Below, piece after piece: positions 7,801-16,801 of a DNA stretch of 64,000 nt (position 1 is its first letter; the number at the start of each line of letters is the position of its first letter). A model generated the notes under the pieces. That model saw only the letters and a list, made by a program, of their open reading frames with translations. It was not told where the DNA came from and made no database searches. Source of the stretch: Mucilaginibacter sp. OK268 (GTDB lineage Bacteria; Bacteroidota; Bacteroidia; Sphingobacteriales; Sphingobacteriaceae); NCBI RefSeq assembly GCF_900103125.1, contig NZ_FNJV01000001.1, forward strand, positions 310,001 to 374,000, written 5' to 3'. The position numbers and the translations under genes were made by a program.

Positions 7801-8176
7801 TTGTTTTGGACAAGTTAATACAAGAGTTATTGAAACTATATATACGACCCTTGGATTGAAGCTGATCTATCATCGCCCGAACTTCTTCAGGTTACGGATT
7901 TTGAATATTACAGCCGATTCAATTTAATATAAACTACGAATTGAGATTATAATTGTTTAAAGAGGCACAAAAACTTGATTCATGATCAGCAAGTTTCAGA
8001 CTGCGCTTTTGAAACTACTCTTGGAATAAAGAAACAGGATTACCAATTGAGCCCTTCAGGATCATTTGAAGTGATTATCGAGCATAACCTATAAAATGTG
8101 CAATTGCGGCTTAGCTTTTTTACCAACAAAGAACACACCGGTCCATATTCATTGCTTAAGCAACCAAGAGCGCGAA

Positions 8177-8256
8177 CCGGGTAAGATGTCAAGGCCGGGC
8201 CGCCGCTGAATAACAGACACAAGGTCCGCTCTGTATAGCCTTTACATCTTACCCGG
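8177..8256. repeat. 19-bp inverted repeat, 18/19 matching
   Basis: CCGGGTAAGATGTCAAGGC at 8177-8195 is matched by its near-perfect reverse complement GCCTTTACATCTTACCCGG at 8238-8256, with 42 bp between. There is no T-run on either side, so a simple terminator is unlikely. A mobile-element end, attachment site or structured RNA element is possible. Confidence 0.7.
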
Positions 8257-8820
8257 TGGCGGGCTATATTCGCGGTAGTGGTGAATATGGGAATTAAAGT
8301 ACAAGCCGGATGCTTTGCTTTGGATCTTCGCCATTCAGATTTTCCGGTAGTGCCCACTTAAAACAAGTATGGTTTCACCATTCACGGTGACAAACCCTAT
8401 AAGCTGTAGTTATAAATTACTTGTTATACTTTTAGTATATCCCGGCTAAGCCCTCGAAATTTATTGTATAAACAAGAAGGATTGAGGAACTAAAATATTC
8501 TGAAGAATCAGGGGGTATATTAGGGTGGTACTTTTCCGGGCAATTTTTTCGCAAAACGCTATATTAAATAGCAAATACGGCCTTTTTACAGGCATTTTCA
8601 TCAATAATAGGAATAAAAAGAGCGAAAAACTTGAAGTTTCCAGCCAAAAGGGTATACTACCCTTTTACCACTGTTTTGGCATATATAAATTTTTTACTTT
8701 GCCATGTACGATGACATAATCATCGCATGATGCAGTTGCATATTGTCCATCGACCTTTTGCTAATAAAAACTGATTGGTAATATAAATCAACTTAATTGT
8801 TAAGGTAAATACCTTTCGGG

Positions 8821-8899
8821 TGTGATTTTATCACATCGTTTGGTGATTTAAATCACATCATTTTGTGAAATTCTCACACTCATTTAGTGATTTATTCTC
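8821..8899. promoter_or_regulatory. Phased array of CRP/FNR-like operator dyads
   Basis: Three clear dyads: TGTGATTTTATCACA (8821-8835), GTGATTTAAATCAC (8843-8856) and TGTGAAATTCTCACA (8864-8878), with a fourth degraded copy GTGATTTATTCTC (8887-8899). Centres fall at about 8828, 8849.5, 8871 and 8893, so spacing is about 21-22 bp, two helical turns. They lie about 110-190 bp upstream of a Crp/Fnr-family gene, suggesting autoregulation. Confidence 0.7.
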
Positions 8900-9011
8900 T
8901 TGATAGGATGCCAGTATGGACATATATTTAAGTGGATGAAATATAACTTGTATTTGCCTCAGAACTCCAAAGACAGGGGGCGGTAATATAAATGACTAAG
9001 AACATAGGAAT

Positions 9012-9644
9012 ATGGGAACAGATAAGTATGAGAAAATTAAGAATGTACTTCGCCGAAAGATCATCCCGATACTTATCCAGGTAAATGGCTCGTTTCCAGA
9101 TTCTTTCGAAACTGCGTTTATAGAAAACAGCAGGATTTTCAAAGGGGTCAAAGATCAGTATATAGAGGAAAGCGGAGAGGCCGAAGACGGGCACCTGATC
9201 TATTTTGAAAGCGGTATTGCCCGTTGTTATTATTATGATGCCATCGCGGATAAATATATTATTACCAGGATCACCAGGAAAGATGATGTGGTGATTGATA
9301 TAAATGCATACCTATACGGAACCCCCAGGGCGGAAAATATTCAAATGCTGGAAACAGGCAACCTGATCACCATTCCTTATTCCAGCTTGAAATTACTTTT
9401 AGCGCAGTACCCGGAGATGTACCCGGTTATCGTCCATTTCCAGGCAGAAAGGGAAAAACAACATTTAGCATACCATCGGCTTTTAAGATCAACTGCCGAC
9501 GAAAGGGTAAAGATCTTTTTAGATGACAATCCAGGGATAGCCACCCGGATCAATAATGAACTTATCGCCAGCCATCTTGATCTATACAGAAGTACGTTCA
9601 GCGCCTCTTACGCCAAATACCGGGCGTCAAGAGATGGGAAATAA
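9012..9644 (+). CDS. Crp/Fnr-family transcriptional regulator
   Basis: 210 residues. The N-terminal two thirds resemble the cyclic-nucleotide-binding beta roll typical of Bacteroidetes Crp-like proteins (HLIYFESGIARCYYYDAIAD, then RKDDVVIDINAYLYGTPRAE, then NLITIPYSSLKLLLAQYP). A helical dimerisation segment with the family-typical LLRSTADERVKIFL follows. The C-terminal helix-turn-helix region (ITATHL-type, here NNELIASHLDLYRSTFSASY) is present. There are no Cys residues for an Fe-S cluster. The phased TGTGA dyads upstream are the obvious candidate target. A small hairpin (AGGGTAA/TTACCCT, 9646-9661) follows the stop. Confidence 0.85.
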   Translation: MGTDKYEKIKNVLRRKIIPILIQVNGSFPDSFETAFIENSRIFKGVKDQYIEESGEAEDGHLIYFESGIARCYYYDAIADKYIITRITRKDDVVIDINAYLYGTPRAENIQMLETGNLITIPYSSLKLLLAQYPEMYPVIVHFQAEREKQHLAYHRLLRSTADERVKIFLDDNPGIATRINNELIASHLDLYRSTFSASYAKYRASRDGK

Positions 9645-9959: not shown

Positions 9960-10210
9960 TTCAGCTTTATGATTTATAGCATAGTGGTAGTGTCAGCTGG
10001 CTGGATGAGCCTGGGGAATACCGGTTTCATAGCGCCCTTTCCGGGCGGATAAGCATCAAGAACTAAAGTGACAGCCCCCAAGGAGATTTGCTGTCATTCG
10101 TGTAAAAACCGGCGGTATTGGTAAGTGAACTCCGGGTCAGATGCAAGGAACGCCAGCACGGCGATAAGTGCATTGAGCTATATGGGCAGGGTGTGCCGAG
10201 GTTGTACAGT
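9960..10210 (+). ncRNA. Possible group II intron RNA relic
   Basis: The stretch reads like fragments of group II intron domain I (a GCGCCCTTTCCGGGCGGATAAGC hairpin region, then AAGGAGATTTGCTGTCA, then CCGAGGTTGTACAGTTAACA). No reverse transcriptase frame follows and no domain V is obvious, so if real it is a truncated, ORF-less relic. This rests on remembered resemblance only. The rest of 9645-10622 holds nothing else I can support apart from a small hairpin near 10500-10535. Confidence 0.25.
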
Positions 10211-10622
10211 TAACAGGAGTGACAGAAAAAAGGCAAGGCTTATGAAAACATTAAATGCATCAAAAATCAGGAACACTGTGGAGGCACTGACCTCCAAGGC
10301 AATCCTTGTCATTAGGACGTTGCTATGCATCCGTTTTGTAACGCCAAAAATGTCGGCATCTTTCCATATCTATTTTATCAAGATGCTGAATCTTTTTAAC
10401 TGTGCTCATGCCCGAAAGAGATTGCTAACCCGAGTTGTTCACCACAGAAAGTTTGCCTTATTCACGCCTGGCAACGAACAAGGAAGTTTTAAATGAAAAA
10501 GACCCGTCTGTAGCAGAAGAGTCTTTCTCGGGGTGCTTACCTTACCGGCAAACATTTATTAATCGCATTATAAATATAAAGTTTTTGGAGCCCTTTTTTG
10601 CTACTATAAAAAGTTCATACCT

Positions 10623-10976
10623 GTGAAAAAAATCACGTTAAAAAATAAAAAAGTATGGCTGGGAGCTATACTTTCATTTGCTTTCGTTGCAATTATAGGC
10701 GTAGCTTTTGCTTTTACACCAGACGTAAAAAAAGCAATTCCGGTTAATACAAAAAAGATAGCAGGACTGTATTGGTATCACGTAGATGCAAGTACCAATG
10801 AAACGACTGCGGCCTACTCTTACAACGACACTAAAGCAAATGTTATTAATGCCCAAAGTTGTAAGGACAATGCCAATCAGCCTATTTGTTTGTTTGGATC
10901 TACAAACGCTTCATTGCCGGTAGGAACAAATGTCGGATCGCCGGCTTCGGATAACAGGATACTGCAAAAGAATTAA
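10623..10976 (+). CDS. Small exported protein (DUF6520-like)
   Basis: 117 residues from a GTG start at 10623. A basic N-terminus and a single hydrophobic segment (WLGAILSFAFVAIIGVAFAF) form a signal peptide, followed by a short Asn/Ser/Thr-rich mature part with two Cys (AQSCKDNANQPICLFG). This layout resembles the small Bacteroidetes proteins grouped as DUF6520, which often occur near SusC/TonB systems; membership is inferred from layout. A strong terminator follows. Confidence 0.65.
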   Translation: MKKITLKNKKVWLGAILSFAFVAIIGVAFAFTPDVKKAIPVNTKKIAGLYWYHVDASTNETTAAYSYNDTKANVINAQSCKDNANQPICLFGSTNASLPVGTNVGSPASDNRILQKN

Positions 10977-11052: not shown

Positions 11053-12354
11053 TTAATTTTCTTTTAGAGAAAGAACAGTTAAATCAACATCTTTTTCCAC
11101 CAGATCCAGGTCATAAACTTTTAAGGCATTACGCAGATTTGCTAAAACAATCCTGTCTAATACATCTGCTTTGAATTGAATATCGATATTGCCAGTGTAT
11201 CCCGTTTGATCTATAAAAGGTTGTTTAATTCCATATTCTATCAATCCCGTCAGCCTTTTCGAGAATTTAGTAAACGGCTGATTGATTAAAGAACGCGTTG
11301 GGCCATAGTCTTTACCAATCCTGTCTGCGTGGAAAAACGAATCGATGGGCTTATGCCCACGTGTTTTTATTTTATCTGTATTGCTTGTCCTGACCAGGAC
11401 ATGGCATCTTACCGGTCTTTTTTCAATACCGGCGTTTAAGTGAAAAGCGCGGTTTAAATCCTCCTTCATTAATTCATAAAGATTATACGGTTTGTCATTG
11501 GGAACAGAAGATTGGTACCAATAAATATTATCTCTCAACCATACCTGTTCATCATAATCGTTTAGATTTTTAGGCTCAAAGTATTTAGTGGAATCTTTTG
11601 TCTGAATAACAGTTCTGCCTGGCCTAAAAAACCCATACTTCCCATTTGTTAACCCTTCCCACGCCCTTTGATACAAAAATATGATGGTTCCACCATCTGA
11701 AAGACTCTGACCTATTTCGGATGCCCCTAACTTAACGCCTAAATCTTTGCCCCTATAAATGTAGGAGGAATATAACATATCATTGCTCCAGCGTTTATCA
11801 AATAAGGATTCAACGTAATTATTCTTTACAGCTTCAGGGACTTTCATTGTTTTATTGGAAAGGACGGCCTCAATATTTGGCTGTGTAACAGGTACATCAT
11901 CCAACAGCATCTTTCCATCTTTTCCTATCCAAACTATGTAAGGATTACCCCGGTGAGGGAAGACCTTTTGCAGTATGGTATCGCCGGTGATAAATGGTAA
12001 TGAAGGCAGGTAAACTTTTGGATGGTTTTTGAAAAACCGCCCGATAGAATCTCTGTCTAAGGGATTAACGGGAATTATCTGAATTTCACTACTGAACATT
12101 TTCTGCAGAGAATCCAGTTTTGGAAATTCCTCAATGCATGGAATACAAAATACGCCCCAAAAATCAAGTATGACCAGCTTACCGCGCAAATCCGATAATT
12201 TGATTTCTGCATTGCTGCTGTTAAATATGTTTTTGAATGTAAGATCGGGCACTTCGTCACCTACTGTTAACGGTTTATTTTGTGCTTTCAGACGGGTGCT
12301 ATTTAATAAAACGATCAGGGTTACCAAATGTAACAGGACAATTGACTTTCTCAT
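11053..12354 (-). CDS. TlpA-like thioredoxin-fold protein with long C-terminal extension
   Basis: 433 residues. A signal peptide ends near LKAQ. The AhpC/TSA-TlpA thioredoxin fold covers about 30-170: VGDEVPDLTF, then KLVILDFWGVFCIPC with the redox pair C70-x-x-C73, then a GNPYIVWIGKDGKML strand region. The remaining about 260 residues are an extension of unknown role, common in Bacteroidetes thioredoxin-like proteins. It is the last gene of the susC-susD unit (25 bp behind susD), so it probably works in the periplasm with that uptake system, for example keeping a cargo or binding protein reduced. Confidence 0.85.
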   Translation of the reverse strand: MRKSIVLLHLVTLIVLLNSTRLKAQNKPLTVGDEVPDLTFKNIFNSSNAEIKLSDLRGKLVILDFWGVFCIPCIEEFPKLDSLQKMFSSEIQIIPVNPLDRDSIGRFFKNHPKVYLPSLPFITGDTILQKVFPHRGNPYIVWIGKDGKMLLDDVPVTQPNIEAVLSNKTMKVPEAVKNNYVESLFDKRWSNDMLYSSYIYRGKDLGVKLGASEIGQSLSDGGTIIFLYQRAWEGLTNGKYGFFRPGRTVIQTKDSTKYFEPKNLNDYDEQVWLRDNIYWYQSSVPNDKPYNLYELMKEDLNRAFHLNAGIEKRPVRCHVLVRTSNTDKIKTRGHKPIDSFFHADRIGKDYGPTRSLINQPFTKFSKRLTGLIEYGIKQPFIDQTGYTGNIDIQFKADVLDRIVLANLRNALKVYDLDLVEKDVDLTVLSLKEN

Positions 12355-12378
12355 GGTGTTGAACTTTGGCAGATGCTA

Positions 12379-13755
12379 TTAATAACCGGTGTTTTGTACC
12401 AGTTTAACATTGTAGGTTAGCTGATCTAAAGGAAGGGGTAATAAGGCAGCATAAGGCTTCCAGTCAGGCTTTTCAGCCCCAAGGACTCCATCGATGGTTC
12501 CCCATCTTTTTAAATCAAACCAGCGGTTACCCCACTCGGTAAAAAGCTCTAAACGCCTTTCCTTTTGTATCTCCAATAGGCAATTCGCCTGTGACATGGA
12601 AGTAGGATAGGCGGACAGACCAGCCCTGGTATGAATCATATTCAGGTCATTGATCGCTCCCGGTAAATTGGTGTTTTGCTGAGCCCTTGCTTCTGCCCGG
12701 ATCAAATATTGTTCAGCAAACCTGAAAACCACATTGTATTCTGTAATAGAAGTTGTGCTGCTGTTTTTAAATTTATTGGGGTAATAATAAGTTGTACCAC
12801 CAATGGTGTTACTACCCAGCCAATTTGTTTTGCGCTTATCATTGGCATCAAACAAATTGAGTAAATAGGAATTTATTGCGAATGTCGGCTCGACATCAGA
12901 TGATTCGGGGATAAAAGCGCTGGCTTCAGACGAATTTGCGGCATTGTTTGCCGGTGCGATCTCCCAAATGGTTTCCCCGCTGTTGATCAGGAAAACAGCA
13001 TTTAGATCAGGTAGAATACTATAAGTATTTGAATTGATGATAACTGAAGACTGCGCCTCCGCATTAGCCCAATCTTTTTTAAATAAATATATCCGTGCCA
13101 GTAATGCAGTGGCCGTTAGTTTATTGGGCCTTAGCCTACCTATGCTTGGATATGAATTAGTAAGCAGCCCTTGTGCATCGGTCAGGTCGATAATCATCTG
13201 CTGATAAACCTGTGAAGTCGGCGCTCTTTCGGCAGTAGCATTTTGCGCATAATCAGGTGAGGTAATCAATGGAACATCGCCATACAGGTTAACTAAATAA
13301 AAATACATCAGCGCCCTGACCACTTTCATTTCCCCTTTTAACTGATCGTTAACCGATGAAGTAAGACCGTTGCTTTTGTCCAGTCCCTGCAGAATGGCAT
13401 TAGTGCGGTATATGGTGTTATAGGCTGTAGACCAGAAATCACTGATATTCCCATCGTTTGACAGGATGTTATTACTGTAATACGGATCGTAAGTCGAGCT
13501 TGATGAGGTATTGTAGATCTCATCGGCAGTAAGCCCCGTGTAAATACCGATTCCCCCATTGGCAAAAGATGGGTTACCGGAGCGCATCTGGACATAAACG
13601 CCACTTACTGCAGAGAGCGCAGTATTGTCATTTGAAAAAATTGCATCTGTAGCAATTAGCTGTGCTGAGGGAGCAATGTCGACAAACTTTTTACAGGCTG
13701 ATATATTCATGCCCAGCAATAAAATGAGCAGCAGCTTTTTATATAGGATTTTCAT
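12379..13755 (-). CDS. SusD/RagB-family nutrient-binding lipoprotein
   Basis: 458 residues with a lipoprotein signal and Cys21 (NISAC). It has the SusD fold: N-terminal TPR-like helices (YNTIYRTNAILQGLDK, then ALMYFYLVNLYGDVPL) and the RagB C-terminal ending with ERRLELFTEWGNRWFDLKRW. It sits on the outer surface and feeds substrate to the TonB-dependent SusC partner immediately upstream (10 bp gap). No hydrolase or sensor in the operon reveals the substrate. Confidence 0.95.
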   Translation of the reverse strand: MKILYKKLLLILLLGMNISACKKFVDIAPSAQLIATDAIFSNDNTALSAVSGVYVQMRSGNPSFANGGIGIYTGLTADEIYNTSSSSTYDPYYSNNILSNDGNISDFWSTAYNTIYRTNAILQGLDKSNGLTSSVNDQLKGEMKVVRALMYFYLVNLYGDVPLITSPDYAQNATAERAPTSQVYQQMIIDLTDAQGLLTNSYPSIGRLRPNKLTATALLARIYLFKKDWANAEAQSSVIINSNTYSILPDLNAVFLINSGETIWEIAPANNAANSSEASAFIPESSDVEPTFAINSYLLNLFDANDKRKTNWLGSNTIGGTTYYYPNKFKNSSTTSITEYNVVFRFAEQYLIRAEARAQQNTNLPGAINDLNMIHTRAGLSAYPTSMSQANCLLEIQKERRLELFTEWGNRWFDLKRWGTIDGVLGAEKPDWKPYAALLPLPLDQLTYNVKLVQNTGY

Positions 13756-13765
13756 GTTGTAATGT

Positions 13766-16700
13766 TTAAAGGGTTAGTTGAATACCTGCGGTAATTGTTC
13801 TTAATGGAGGTAGTACAAAAAGGCTTTGGTTTTCAGGGTCGGCTCCGATGTAATTGGTCATCGTTAAAAGATTCTGTCCCTGGAAATAAACCCTGCAATT
13901 AACCAAATGAAGCTTTTTCAGTAAGGGTTGCGGAATGCTATAAGACAGCGCCACGTTTTTAAGGCGTATATAAGAGGCATCAGAATAAATAGCGTTTGAA
14001 CTTCGCAGGTAAAGATTGGAAGCTGTTAATGCAGGGCCGCCTGCACTGGTAAACTTTTGTATGTCGGCGATATCTCCGGGATTTTGCCAGCGGGATAAGA
14101 CGATTACAGGTTGATTATAATATTTATATCCCGGAACGGTTCCGGCAAGGTTCGACAGGTAATTAACGCCGTTTTGTTTTTTAAACTCGAAAAATATATC
14201 CAGCTGGAAATTTTGATAACTGACACTGTTCTGAAATCCACCATAAAATTTAGGGTCGGTGTTAACAAGAGTGTTCCTGTCTGCCTGATTATACTTTCCA
14301 TCATTATTAACGTCCTGGAACTGATAAACGCCGGTTTGCGGATCAACTCCTAAATAGTGATAAACCAACCTGCTCGATACGGACTGGCCAATAATATAGG
14401 TACCGGCATAGGTTGAACTTTCCAATCCAGGAAATGCAAGTAGCTGATTTTTAGGCATGGTTAAATTAAATGAACTATTCCAGGTAAAGGCGTGTGAACT
14501 GATGTTTTTACTGCTTAACTGAAACTCCCAGCCTTTATTGACAATAGTGGCATTGAGATTCTCTAATATGGATGTAAAACCGGTTTGTGTCGGTAAAGTA
14601 TAGTTAACAAGCTGGTTCTTTGAAAGCGATCTGAAATAAGCGGCAGACAATAATATCCGGTTATTTAAAAAACCTAAATCCAATGCAAGCTCAGCCTTTT
14701 TATTTTTCTCCCACTTAAAAGACGGATTATAGAGCGAAGTCGGGTTTAAACTGCTTACGTTTTGATAAGTGTCGGACACCGGTGTCCAGGTATCCAGGTA
14801 TTGATAATCGCCGATCTGATCATTACCTGTGATGCCATAGCTTCCCCTGAGTTTCCCGAAACTGATGATGTTACTAAGCTTGTTTTTTATAAATTTTTCT
14901 TCCGAAAAAATCCAGGCGGCTCCTAACGCCGCAAAATTGCTGAACCTGCTTTGTGGACCAAATCTGCTCGAACCATCTCTTCTGCCACTTATATTTACGA
15001 TATATTTATCCTGTAAATTAAAATTGATTCTCCCATAGACTCCTTCATACCGGTACTGGCTATAAGTATTGTTACTCTGTGTAGTACCTGCCGCTGCAAT
15101 GGAATTTAACAGCAGATCATTATTGTAATTTGTGGCGGCTACGGTCAGGCCGTTGCTTGATTGATCTTGCCATGTTCCCCCGATCAGGACATCCAATTTT
15201 CCAATACCGAGCGTTTTTGTGTACTGGGCTTGTGGTTCAATTATCCAGCTTTGGAATGTCCGGTTTGCAAAATTACTATAAGGTAGTTGCAACGAATAGG
15301 GATTAATAGATGTGCTTGGAAAAGTAGCGACCTCATTACTGTTTACCAAGTTATACCCCATGCTTACTTTTAGGAGAAGATCAGGTATGATATGATATCC
15401 GATCATTAAATTGCTATTCAGGTTGTTAAACTTTCCTGTGTAATTCTGATACTGAAACGCAAGCGGATTGGGGTTCAGGATACCGAGGCTCGAATAAGCC
15501 TTGCCTCCTTCTGCCCAGTTTAACTTCCCGTCAGGCGTATACAATTGCAGCATTGGGTTCGAGTTGATATAGCTGCTCAGGTCAGTCGTTGTGAGATTGT
15601 TTTTATTGGTGGCATAACCTGCGGTGAATGCAATGTTCAATTTATTATCAGTTGAGTGATGATTTAGGCTCAAGTGAAGAGAGCCTCGCGTATCGCCTAA
15701 ATCAGTTGGGAACACGGTTGTTTCGTGATGATAGCCCCCTCCGATAATAAATTGTGTATTAACATTCCCTCCAGATAAGGAAAGCTGTGCATCAGTCGTA
15801 TGAGCAGTACCTCCGATCAATAGTTTTTTAAAGTCAGTATACCTGCTGGTATCCCAAAGCAGCAGGTCAGGCGCATTGGTTGTCGTTGGAGTAAGCCCGC
15901 TATTTTTGAATCCTTCCCTTCGCATTTGCAAATACTGCTGTGTATTCAGCACGTCCATTGTTCGTGACACTTTGCTCACACCGGAATAGGTGTTGAGGTT
16001 CACTTTAACAGATCCCGGCTTACCTTTTTTTGTGGTTATTAAAATTACTCCGTTAGCGCCCCTGCTGCCGTAGATAGCGGTTGCATCGGCATCCTTTAAT
16101 ACCTCGATACTTTCTATATCAGATGGATTAATTAATTGGAAAGGGCTCATACCAGTGCCGCTTGAAGAAGAACCAGCCGCAGATGAAATCTGGTTTAACG
16201 CAGAATTGCCGGTTACAAAGGGAACACCGTCAACAATGTAAAAAGGTTCTGAACCTTGTAAAAGGGAGCTTTGTCCGCGAATCTGAACCTTAAATCCAGC
16301 TCCGCTAACCCCGCTGCTTTGCGTGACAGATAATCCGGGTACGCGTCCTTCCAATGCGGCCAAGGGGTTGGATACAGGTTGTTTTTCAATGTCGGCAGCT
16401 TTGACAGAAGATACATCACCAGTACTTAGTCTTTTCGTTGTAGTTCCGTAAGCAATGATTTGTACTTCATCCAATTCCCCAGTATTGTTCTTTAAACGGA
16501 TGATGAATTGTTGTTTCTGAAGTTCGGATAAGCGTATTTCTATTGGTTGATAGCCTATAAAGCTAATTACGAGTATGTCATTTGCAGAAACAGGTCCAAT
16601 CGTAAAGGTTCCGTCTACGGCTGTATTTACGGCAATAGGGCTTCCCTTTAGTTTGACTGTTGCACCGGGAAGCGAAATGCCTTGCTCATCAGTGATTTTT

Positions 16701-16801
16701 CCGTTGATGGTTTGACCAGGTGGTTTGTTTGTGGTTTGCCCTGCTGCCCTGAAAAAAAGGCAAAGCGCGGCCAGCACTATAAAAAGTATAGTTTTTTTCA
16801 T
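13766..16801 (-). CDS. SusC/RagA-family TonB-linked outer-membrane transporter
   Basis: 1011 residues. A signal peptide is followed by a carboxypeptidase-D regulatory-like domain (about 30-110), a TonB-box-like strand (DEVQIIAYGT), and a plug domain ending with the family hallmark IESIEVLKDADATAIYGSRG. The rest is a 22-strand type beta barrel ending in an aromatic/hydrophobic strand (TITAGIQLTL). It imports oligomeric substrates using TonB energy. First gene of a susC-susD-thioredoxin unit. No anti-sigma STN domain is present at the N-terminus, so it is not of the FecA-type sensing class. Confidence 0.95.
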   Translation of the reverse strand: MKKTILFIVLAALCLFFRAAGQTTNKPPGQTINGKITDEQGISLPGATVKLKGSPIAVNTAVDGTFTIGPVSANDILVISFIGYQPIEIRLSELQKQQFIIRLKNNTGELDEVQIIAYGTTTKRLSTGDVSSVKAADIEKQPVSNPLAALEGRVPGLSVTQSSGVSGAGFKVQIRGQSSLLQGSEPFYIVDGVPFVTGNSALNQISSAAGSSSSGTGMSPFQLINPSDIESIEVLKDADATAIYGSRGANGVILITTKKGKPGSVKVNLNTYSGVSKVSRTMDVLNTQQYLQMRREGFKNSGLTPTTTNAPDLLLWDTSRYTDFKKLLIGGTAHTTDAQLSLSGGNVNTQFIIGGGYHHETTVFPTDLGDTRGSLHLSLNHHSTDNKLNIAFTAGYATNKNNLTTTDLSSYINSNPMLQLYTPDGKLNWAEGGKAYSSLGILNPNPLAFQYQNYTGKFNNLNSNLMIGYHIIPDLLLKVSMGYNLVNSNEVATFPSTSINPYSLQLPYSNFANRTFQSWIIEPQAQYTKTLGIGKLDVLIGGTWQDQSSNGLTVAATNYNNDLLLNSIAAAGTTQSNNTYSQYRYEGVYGRINFNLQDKYIVNISGRRDGSSRFGPQSRFSNFAALGAAWIFSEEKFIKNKLSNIISFGKLRGSYGITGNDQIGDYQYLDTWTPVSDTYQNVSSLNPTSLYNPSFKWEKNKKAELALDLGFLNNRILLSAAYFRSLSKNQLVNYTLPTQTGFTSILENLNATIVNKGWEFQLSSKNISSHAFTWNSSFNLTMPKNQLLAFPGLESSTYAGTYIIGQSVSSRLVYHYLGVDPQTGVYQFQDVNNDGKYNQADRNTLVNTDPKFYGGFQNSVSYQNFQLDIFFEFKKQNGVNYLSNLAGTVPGYKYYNQPVIVLSRWQNPGDIADIQKFTSAGGPALTASNLYLRSSNAIYSDASYIRLKNVALSYSIPQPLLKKLHLVNCRVYFQGQNLLTMTNYIGADPENQSLFVLPPLRTITAGIQLTL

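Follow-up and report, generated by a model that had tools for sequence, protein, structure and literature searches.

The regulatory gene at positions 9012–9644 of the window (the whole 64,000-nucleotide stretch of the Mucilaginibacter sp. OK268 genome analysed here) is preceded by a phased array of short palindromes which, judged from the sequence, is most likely an operator, lineage-specific in its letters. The array appears to be a lineage-specific form of a known kind of operator, and its palindromes are probably docking sites for the local regulator or a relative of it. The reading preferred here, with a confidence that stops a little short of even, is an autoregulatory cooperative tandem operator, built of 21.5–22-bp units and lying in the untranslated leader that precedes an accessory gene of the Crp/Fnr type. 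To our knowledge, the DNA targets of the dozens of short Crp/Fnr-like proteins of Bacteroidota are almost all unknown: a gene with a likely operator in several phased copies alongside offers a handle on one such target. If the phase is kept while the letters change, operator and regulator would be evolving together over short distances. The features of the locus are as follows.

8646–8666, no strand assigned: operator-like palindrome AAAAGGGTATACTACCCTTTT, abutting the promoter-like element; also present before other genes in four further Mucilaginibacter genomes
8670–8701, forward strand: promoter-like element of Bacteroidetes type, ACTGTT...TACTTTG, with TACTTTG at 8695–8701
8775–8820, no strand assigned: degenerate upstream units with a 22-bp rhythm, TTGGTAATATAAATCA...
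8821–8835, no strand assigned: dyad 1, TGTGATTTTATCACA, centre 8828
8842–8857, no strand assigned: dyad 2, GGTGATTTAAATCACA, centre 8849.5
8864–8878, no strand assigned: dyad 3, TGTGAAATTCTCACA, centre 8871
8886–8900, no strand assigned: dyad 4, decayed, AGTGATTTATTCTCT, centre 8893
9012–9644, forward strand: Crp/Fnr-fold regulator of 210 amino acids whose nucleotide-binding domain is degenerate and whose C terminus forms a helix-turn-helix, according to the fold model and Foldseek
10623–10976, forward strand: small secreted protein, DUF6520-like by eye, a conserved neighbour
11053–16801, reverse strand: TlpA-like, SusD-like and SusC-like genes, oriented towards the regulator

The dyads have the form GTGA-N5/6-TCAC and follow one another at centre-to-centre steps of 21.5, 21.5 and 22 bp. 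TRF places the array at 8822–8893 with a period of 22 and a score of 77, the top score in the window. Its self-identity at lag 22 is 0.47, a value reached in none of 500 dinucleotide shuffles, and there is a further peak at lag 43. The preliminary description of three strong and one decayed TGTGA/TCACA dyads, phased at about 21.5 bp, is confirmed by the sequence, by TRF and by simulations, with two details amended: the spacers of dyads 1–3 alternate 5/6/5 bp, and a degenerate rhythm reaches further upstream. This 22-bp rhythm probably starts near 8775, since the degenerate copy TTGGTAATATAAATCA located there is 88% like the stretch 8840–8855, at a distance of 65 bp, equal to three units. Within the first three units the dyad arms seem better preserved than the remainder: no differences in 24 pairwise comparisons, against 17 of 43 in the rest (Fisher p = 2e-4, for comparisons that are mutually dependent). 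Arms that stay unchanged while centres and spacers vary count in favour of an operator.

Single dyads are ordinary, because contig C7 (1.27 Mb) contains 20 sites of this form where a first-order Markov model predicts 17. It is their grouping that is exceptional: on C7, pairs and a triple at 20–23.5 bp spacing occur at the array only, and 20 simulated contigs (25 Mb in all) yielded 0 pairs and 0 triples. The locus has inverted repeats in phase, beyond chance, as is expected of an operator array. No similar tandem was found elsewhere in the source genome (G000, 7.16 Mb), nor such dyads upstream of 30 other genes of Crp/Fnr type in that genome, nor a second dyad copy in the promoters of the neighbouring SusC and secreted-protein genes. 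Likewise, 90 other genomes of the genus lack a like tandem, save for one pair in G015 that is at chance level. These results are in keeping with the earlier claim that the array is unusual; a literature search for operator arrays of the Crp/Fnr family in Bacteroidetes gave no relevant match. As the array occurs once in the genome and precedes none of the 30 paralogues, its uniqueness and position would tie it to the 9012–9644 gene.

The genome search for the same dyad that had been proposed as a check was run on C7, 18% of the genome, and gave no excess over the expected count; a regulon of the dyad was rejected for this 18%. Over the whole genome the dyad count is 102 against 58, the latter from a control that is the reversed pattern, of different composition. 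A dyad at 10622 was discarded as the start of a coding sequence, GTGAAAAAAATCAC. Matches to the tandem pattern in G093 and G139, which belong to a different family within the class, were also discarded: they are long 21-bp repeats and the fetched flanks have no Crp/Fnr gene. These repeat arrays, made of GTGATAACATCAC units (L033 1340–1720 and L032 1300–1600), are likely unrelated.

On the basis of its model fold and Foldseek matches, the 9012–9644 product is assigned as a Crp/Fnr-fold protein. The AlphaFold2 model (pLDDT 80.9) displays a nucleotide-binding-like beta roll, a long dimer helix at 134–159 and a C-terminal helix-turn-helix formed by helices 182–188 and 193–208, without wing strands after the recognition helix. 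Foldseek retrieves GlxR, mycobacterial CRP, NtcA and CRP, with E values from 1e-9 to 3e-10. Among the best fold matches is also the cyclic-nucleotide-binding regulatory protein 3dn7 from Cytophaga hutchinsonii (TM by target 0.80), likewise a member of the Bacteroidota, whose solved chain of ~148 residues is 14–16% identical to the local protein. The assignment of the gene behind the array to the Crp/Fnr type, already made in the preliminary description, thus holds by fold and C-terminal helix-turn-helix, with a sequence score below cut-off: cNMP_binding gives E = 0.0012 for the 210-aa protein, under the Pfam cut-off, and no family lies above it. As regards a canonical phosphate-binding cassette, the Pfam score is weak and no G-E-L motif is seen by eye.

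The recognition helix of CRP reads TGTGA via R180, E181 and R185. Of these, R180 has been correlated with G3 of TGTGA and E181 with A6 (PMC1274295). In an alignment to CRP made by eye, R180 corresponds to R193 of the local protein, which is invariant among its relatives and speaks for the operator reading, and E181 and R185 are replaced by S194 and A198. The triad typical of CRP proper is therefore reduced to one of its three base-reading residues and, as only R193 is kept, it is possible, not evident, that the local protein is a TGTGA reader. The residues S194 and A198 in the helix-turn-helix count against an operator for the gene's own product, as does the occurrence of the TGTGA letters in no orthologue.

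The array could instead be an operator for another Crp/Fnr-type protein. At least 33 cNMP-binding-domain matches are present in the genome, and the full R-E-x-x-x-R triad that the local protein lacks is found at one of the 30 other Crp/Fnr-like loci examined, the L153 paralogue on contig C15 (helix SRETLSRL). However, one would expect more targets of a regulator acting in trans, whereas outside the array the dyad is about as frequent as chance predicts on the 18% of the genome counted, and the upstream region of L153 is itself devoid of such a dyad. An operator for such a regulator is unlikely, albeit far from negligible.

The operator reading also has to be viewed against the orthologues of the gene, which is present in 4 of 150 Mucilaginibacter genomes at E <= 1e-20: the source, G072, G473 (M. 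flavidus) and G023 (M. frigoritolerans), the last three encoding proteins 68%, 67% and 66% identical to the local one. These three relatives emerged from an alignment-based scan; a single-protein scan of genome contigs returned none. A sister genus harbours seven copies, 38–45% identical, in six genomes, and no array is visible upstream of these seven orthologues. The preliminary description had staked its claim on conservation of the dyads before orthologues. For the letters this fails, as TGTGA dyads are absent in all three same-genus orthologues; the 22-bp architecture recurs clearly in one of the three, G473, in other letters.

At the orthologous place G473 has an independent phased array: two 21-bp palindromes, TTAATACGGTAATCGTATTAA and TTAATATGGTAATCATGTTAA, with centres 22 bp apart and symmetry at 15 of the 16 positions scored, a level reached in 0 of 300 shuffles, according to a phased-palindrome score that assumes longer arms than those of the source array and is informative for G473, not for the source. 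In the leader of G473 the lag-22 value was reached in 0 of 500 shuffles. The leaders of G473 and G023 are near-identical save for one gap of exactly 22 bp, an exact change by one unit. Between the anchors AATTGTTAAGGTAAAT and TTGATA the source spans 89 bp and G072 44 bp, a difference of two units plus one base. G072 carries a TGTAA-N6-TTACA dyad, TGTAAAGCAGCTTACA, in register with dyad 3: it lies 28 bp from the anchor and dyad 3 28.5 bp, a coincidence seen in 1.4% of shuffles. Taken alone, the leaders of G023 and G072 have no significant 22-bp period, so that the case for recurrence is carried chiefly by G473 and by the copy-number steps.

Copy-number steps are also what neutral slippage would leave behind, if a palindromic unit that binds nothing had been amplified by chance. 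The exact one-unit difference between the close relatives G473 and G023 and the change of sequence between species fit this explanation; furthermore, the spacers are alike as well as the arms, which implies that the units are duplicates of one another. Nevertheless, the arms are unchanged while the rest has diverged, independent phased palindromic arrays occupy the same site in two lineages, and in G072 the change from GTGA/TCAC to GTAA/TTAC is symmetric and in register. Slippage without function is accordingly improbable, if still to be reckoned with. A fast-evolving array, with selection acting on the two-turn phase and the letters drifting together with the recognition helix, would imply switches of Crp/Fnr specificity inside one genus. 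This is a rather doubtful proposal; the recognition helix has Y192, S194 and A198 in this species and S, T and S in relatives.

The position of the array with respect to the promoter bears on its mode of action. The strongest promoter candidate is the stretch 8646–8701: the orthologues retain the block CTACCCTTTTACTACTGTTTTG, which is slightly altered in G072 and the source. ACTGTT and TACTTTG are 19–20 bp apart in the source and at loci L061–L063, and together with AAAAGGGTATACTACCCTTTT they recur in the four other genomes immediately before the other genes. As this conserved promoter-like element precedes the array by ~120 bp, we infer that the array is probably inside the transcribed leader rather than upstream of the promoter. 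Counted from the predicted transcription start near 8708, the array would span roughly +112 to +192 of a ~300-nt leader; there may be another promoter beyond the array. The four genomes with near-identical copies of the palindrome AAAGGGTATACTACCC and the TACTTTG element are G039, G083, G025 and G052, and the copies adjoin MauE-like or lanthipeptide-dehydratase-like genes; the 8646–8701 palindrome and promoter-like element are perhaps the signature of a shared regulon. That the dyads are transcript hairpins, serving attenuation or stability, is very unlikely: the array is downstream of a promoter-like element and its RNA is predicted to fold more stably than shuffled sequence (z = -3.25), but the same would hold for any set of DNA dyads, the leader as a whole does not stand out (z = -1.66), the arms are short and A+T-rich without an Rfam match, and RNA has no need of a fixed two-turn phase.

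According to the autoregulatory operator reading, Crp/Fnr-type dimers would occupy adjacent dyads; as for the binder, we infer that it is most likely the gene's own product. Neighbouring dyads two turns apart would bring the dimers onto one DNA face, and their cooperativity is a conjecture. Located downstream of the start, the bound array would block or tune transcription from the 8646–8701 promoter. A block to initiation or elongation would amount to negative autoregulation, the sign of which is likewise conjectural. Whole units would be gained and lost as the array evolves, which lets the letters turn over while the two-turn phase is kept.

Known operators provide partial parallels. CRP/HcpR-type operators conform to wTGTGAnnnnnnTCACAw, and motif and recognition helix change together (PMC1274295). 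The half-site is the same as that of the array and the spacing nearly the same; in contrast, the array comprises 3–4 phased sites in one leader, its spacer varies (5/6/5) where theirs is fixed at 6, no regulon came to light and the local protein keeps R180 alone of the CRP triad. The HcpR2 operator of Bacteroides and others, GTAACnnnnGTTAC (PMC1274295), has GTAA/TTAC arms that resemble the G072 dyad, but differs in the length of its spacer, in array form and in its target gene; no hcp gene was seen nearby. The Crp homologue of Porphyromonas gingivalis is self-regulated, with reported binding to its own promoter region (PMC12040651); it is a Crp-type protein of the Bacteroidota with autoregulation, as is proposed here. 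No array is described in the passages of that paper drawn on. Its orthology to the local protein was unsupported by the tests made.

The surroundings of the regulator are partly conserved, with neighbour family names assigned by eye except for OmpA and the TlpA-like thioredoxin. In G023, G473 and G072 the neighbours of the regulator are a gene resembling MauE/DoxX, one for a small secreted protein, and TlpA and SusD genes in the opposite orientation (SusC where seen); the source locus is laid out alike but lacks the MauE-like gene. The TlpA/SusD/SusC arrangement is the same in G023, and TlpA and SusD are found at the other orthologue loci. Between the regulator and its neighbour a 104-aa open frame (10182–10496), with a likeness in G473 (L169 5758–6027), may be a small gene or a conserved leader.

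The DNA upstream of the regulator is partly repeated, because a 76% copy of 8198–8548 exists at G000:C7:294007-294353, ~15.6 kb before the window; it is also present in G081, and the copy has no adjoining Crp/Fnr gene in the fetched flanks. A dispersed stem-loop repeat of ~160 nt occupies 8131–8290 (fold z = -5.6, no Rfam match). The region around it has matches in 54 of 91 genomes of the genus, mostly at the stem-loop repeat and often in several copies. Across 13 copies of the repeat, 7 of the 42 predicted pairs have two-sided changes that keep the pair.
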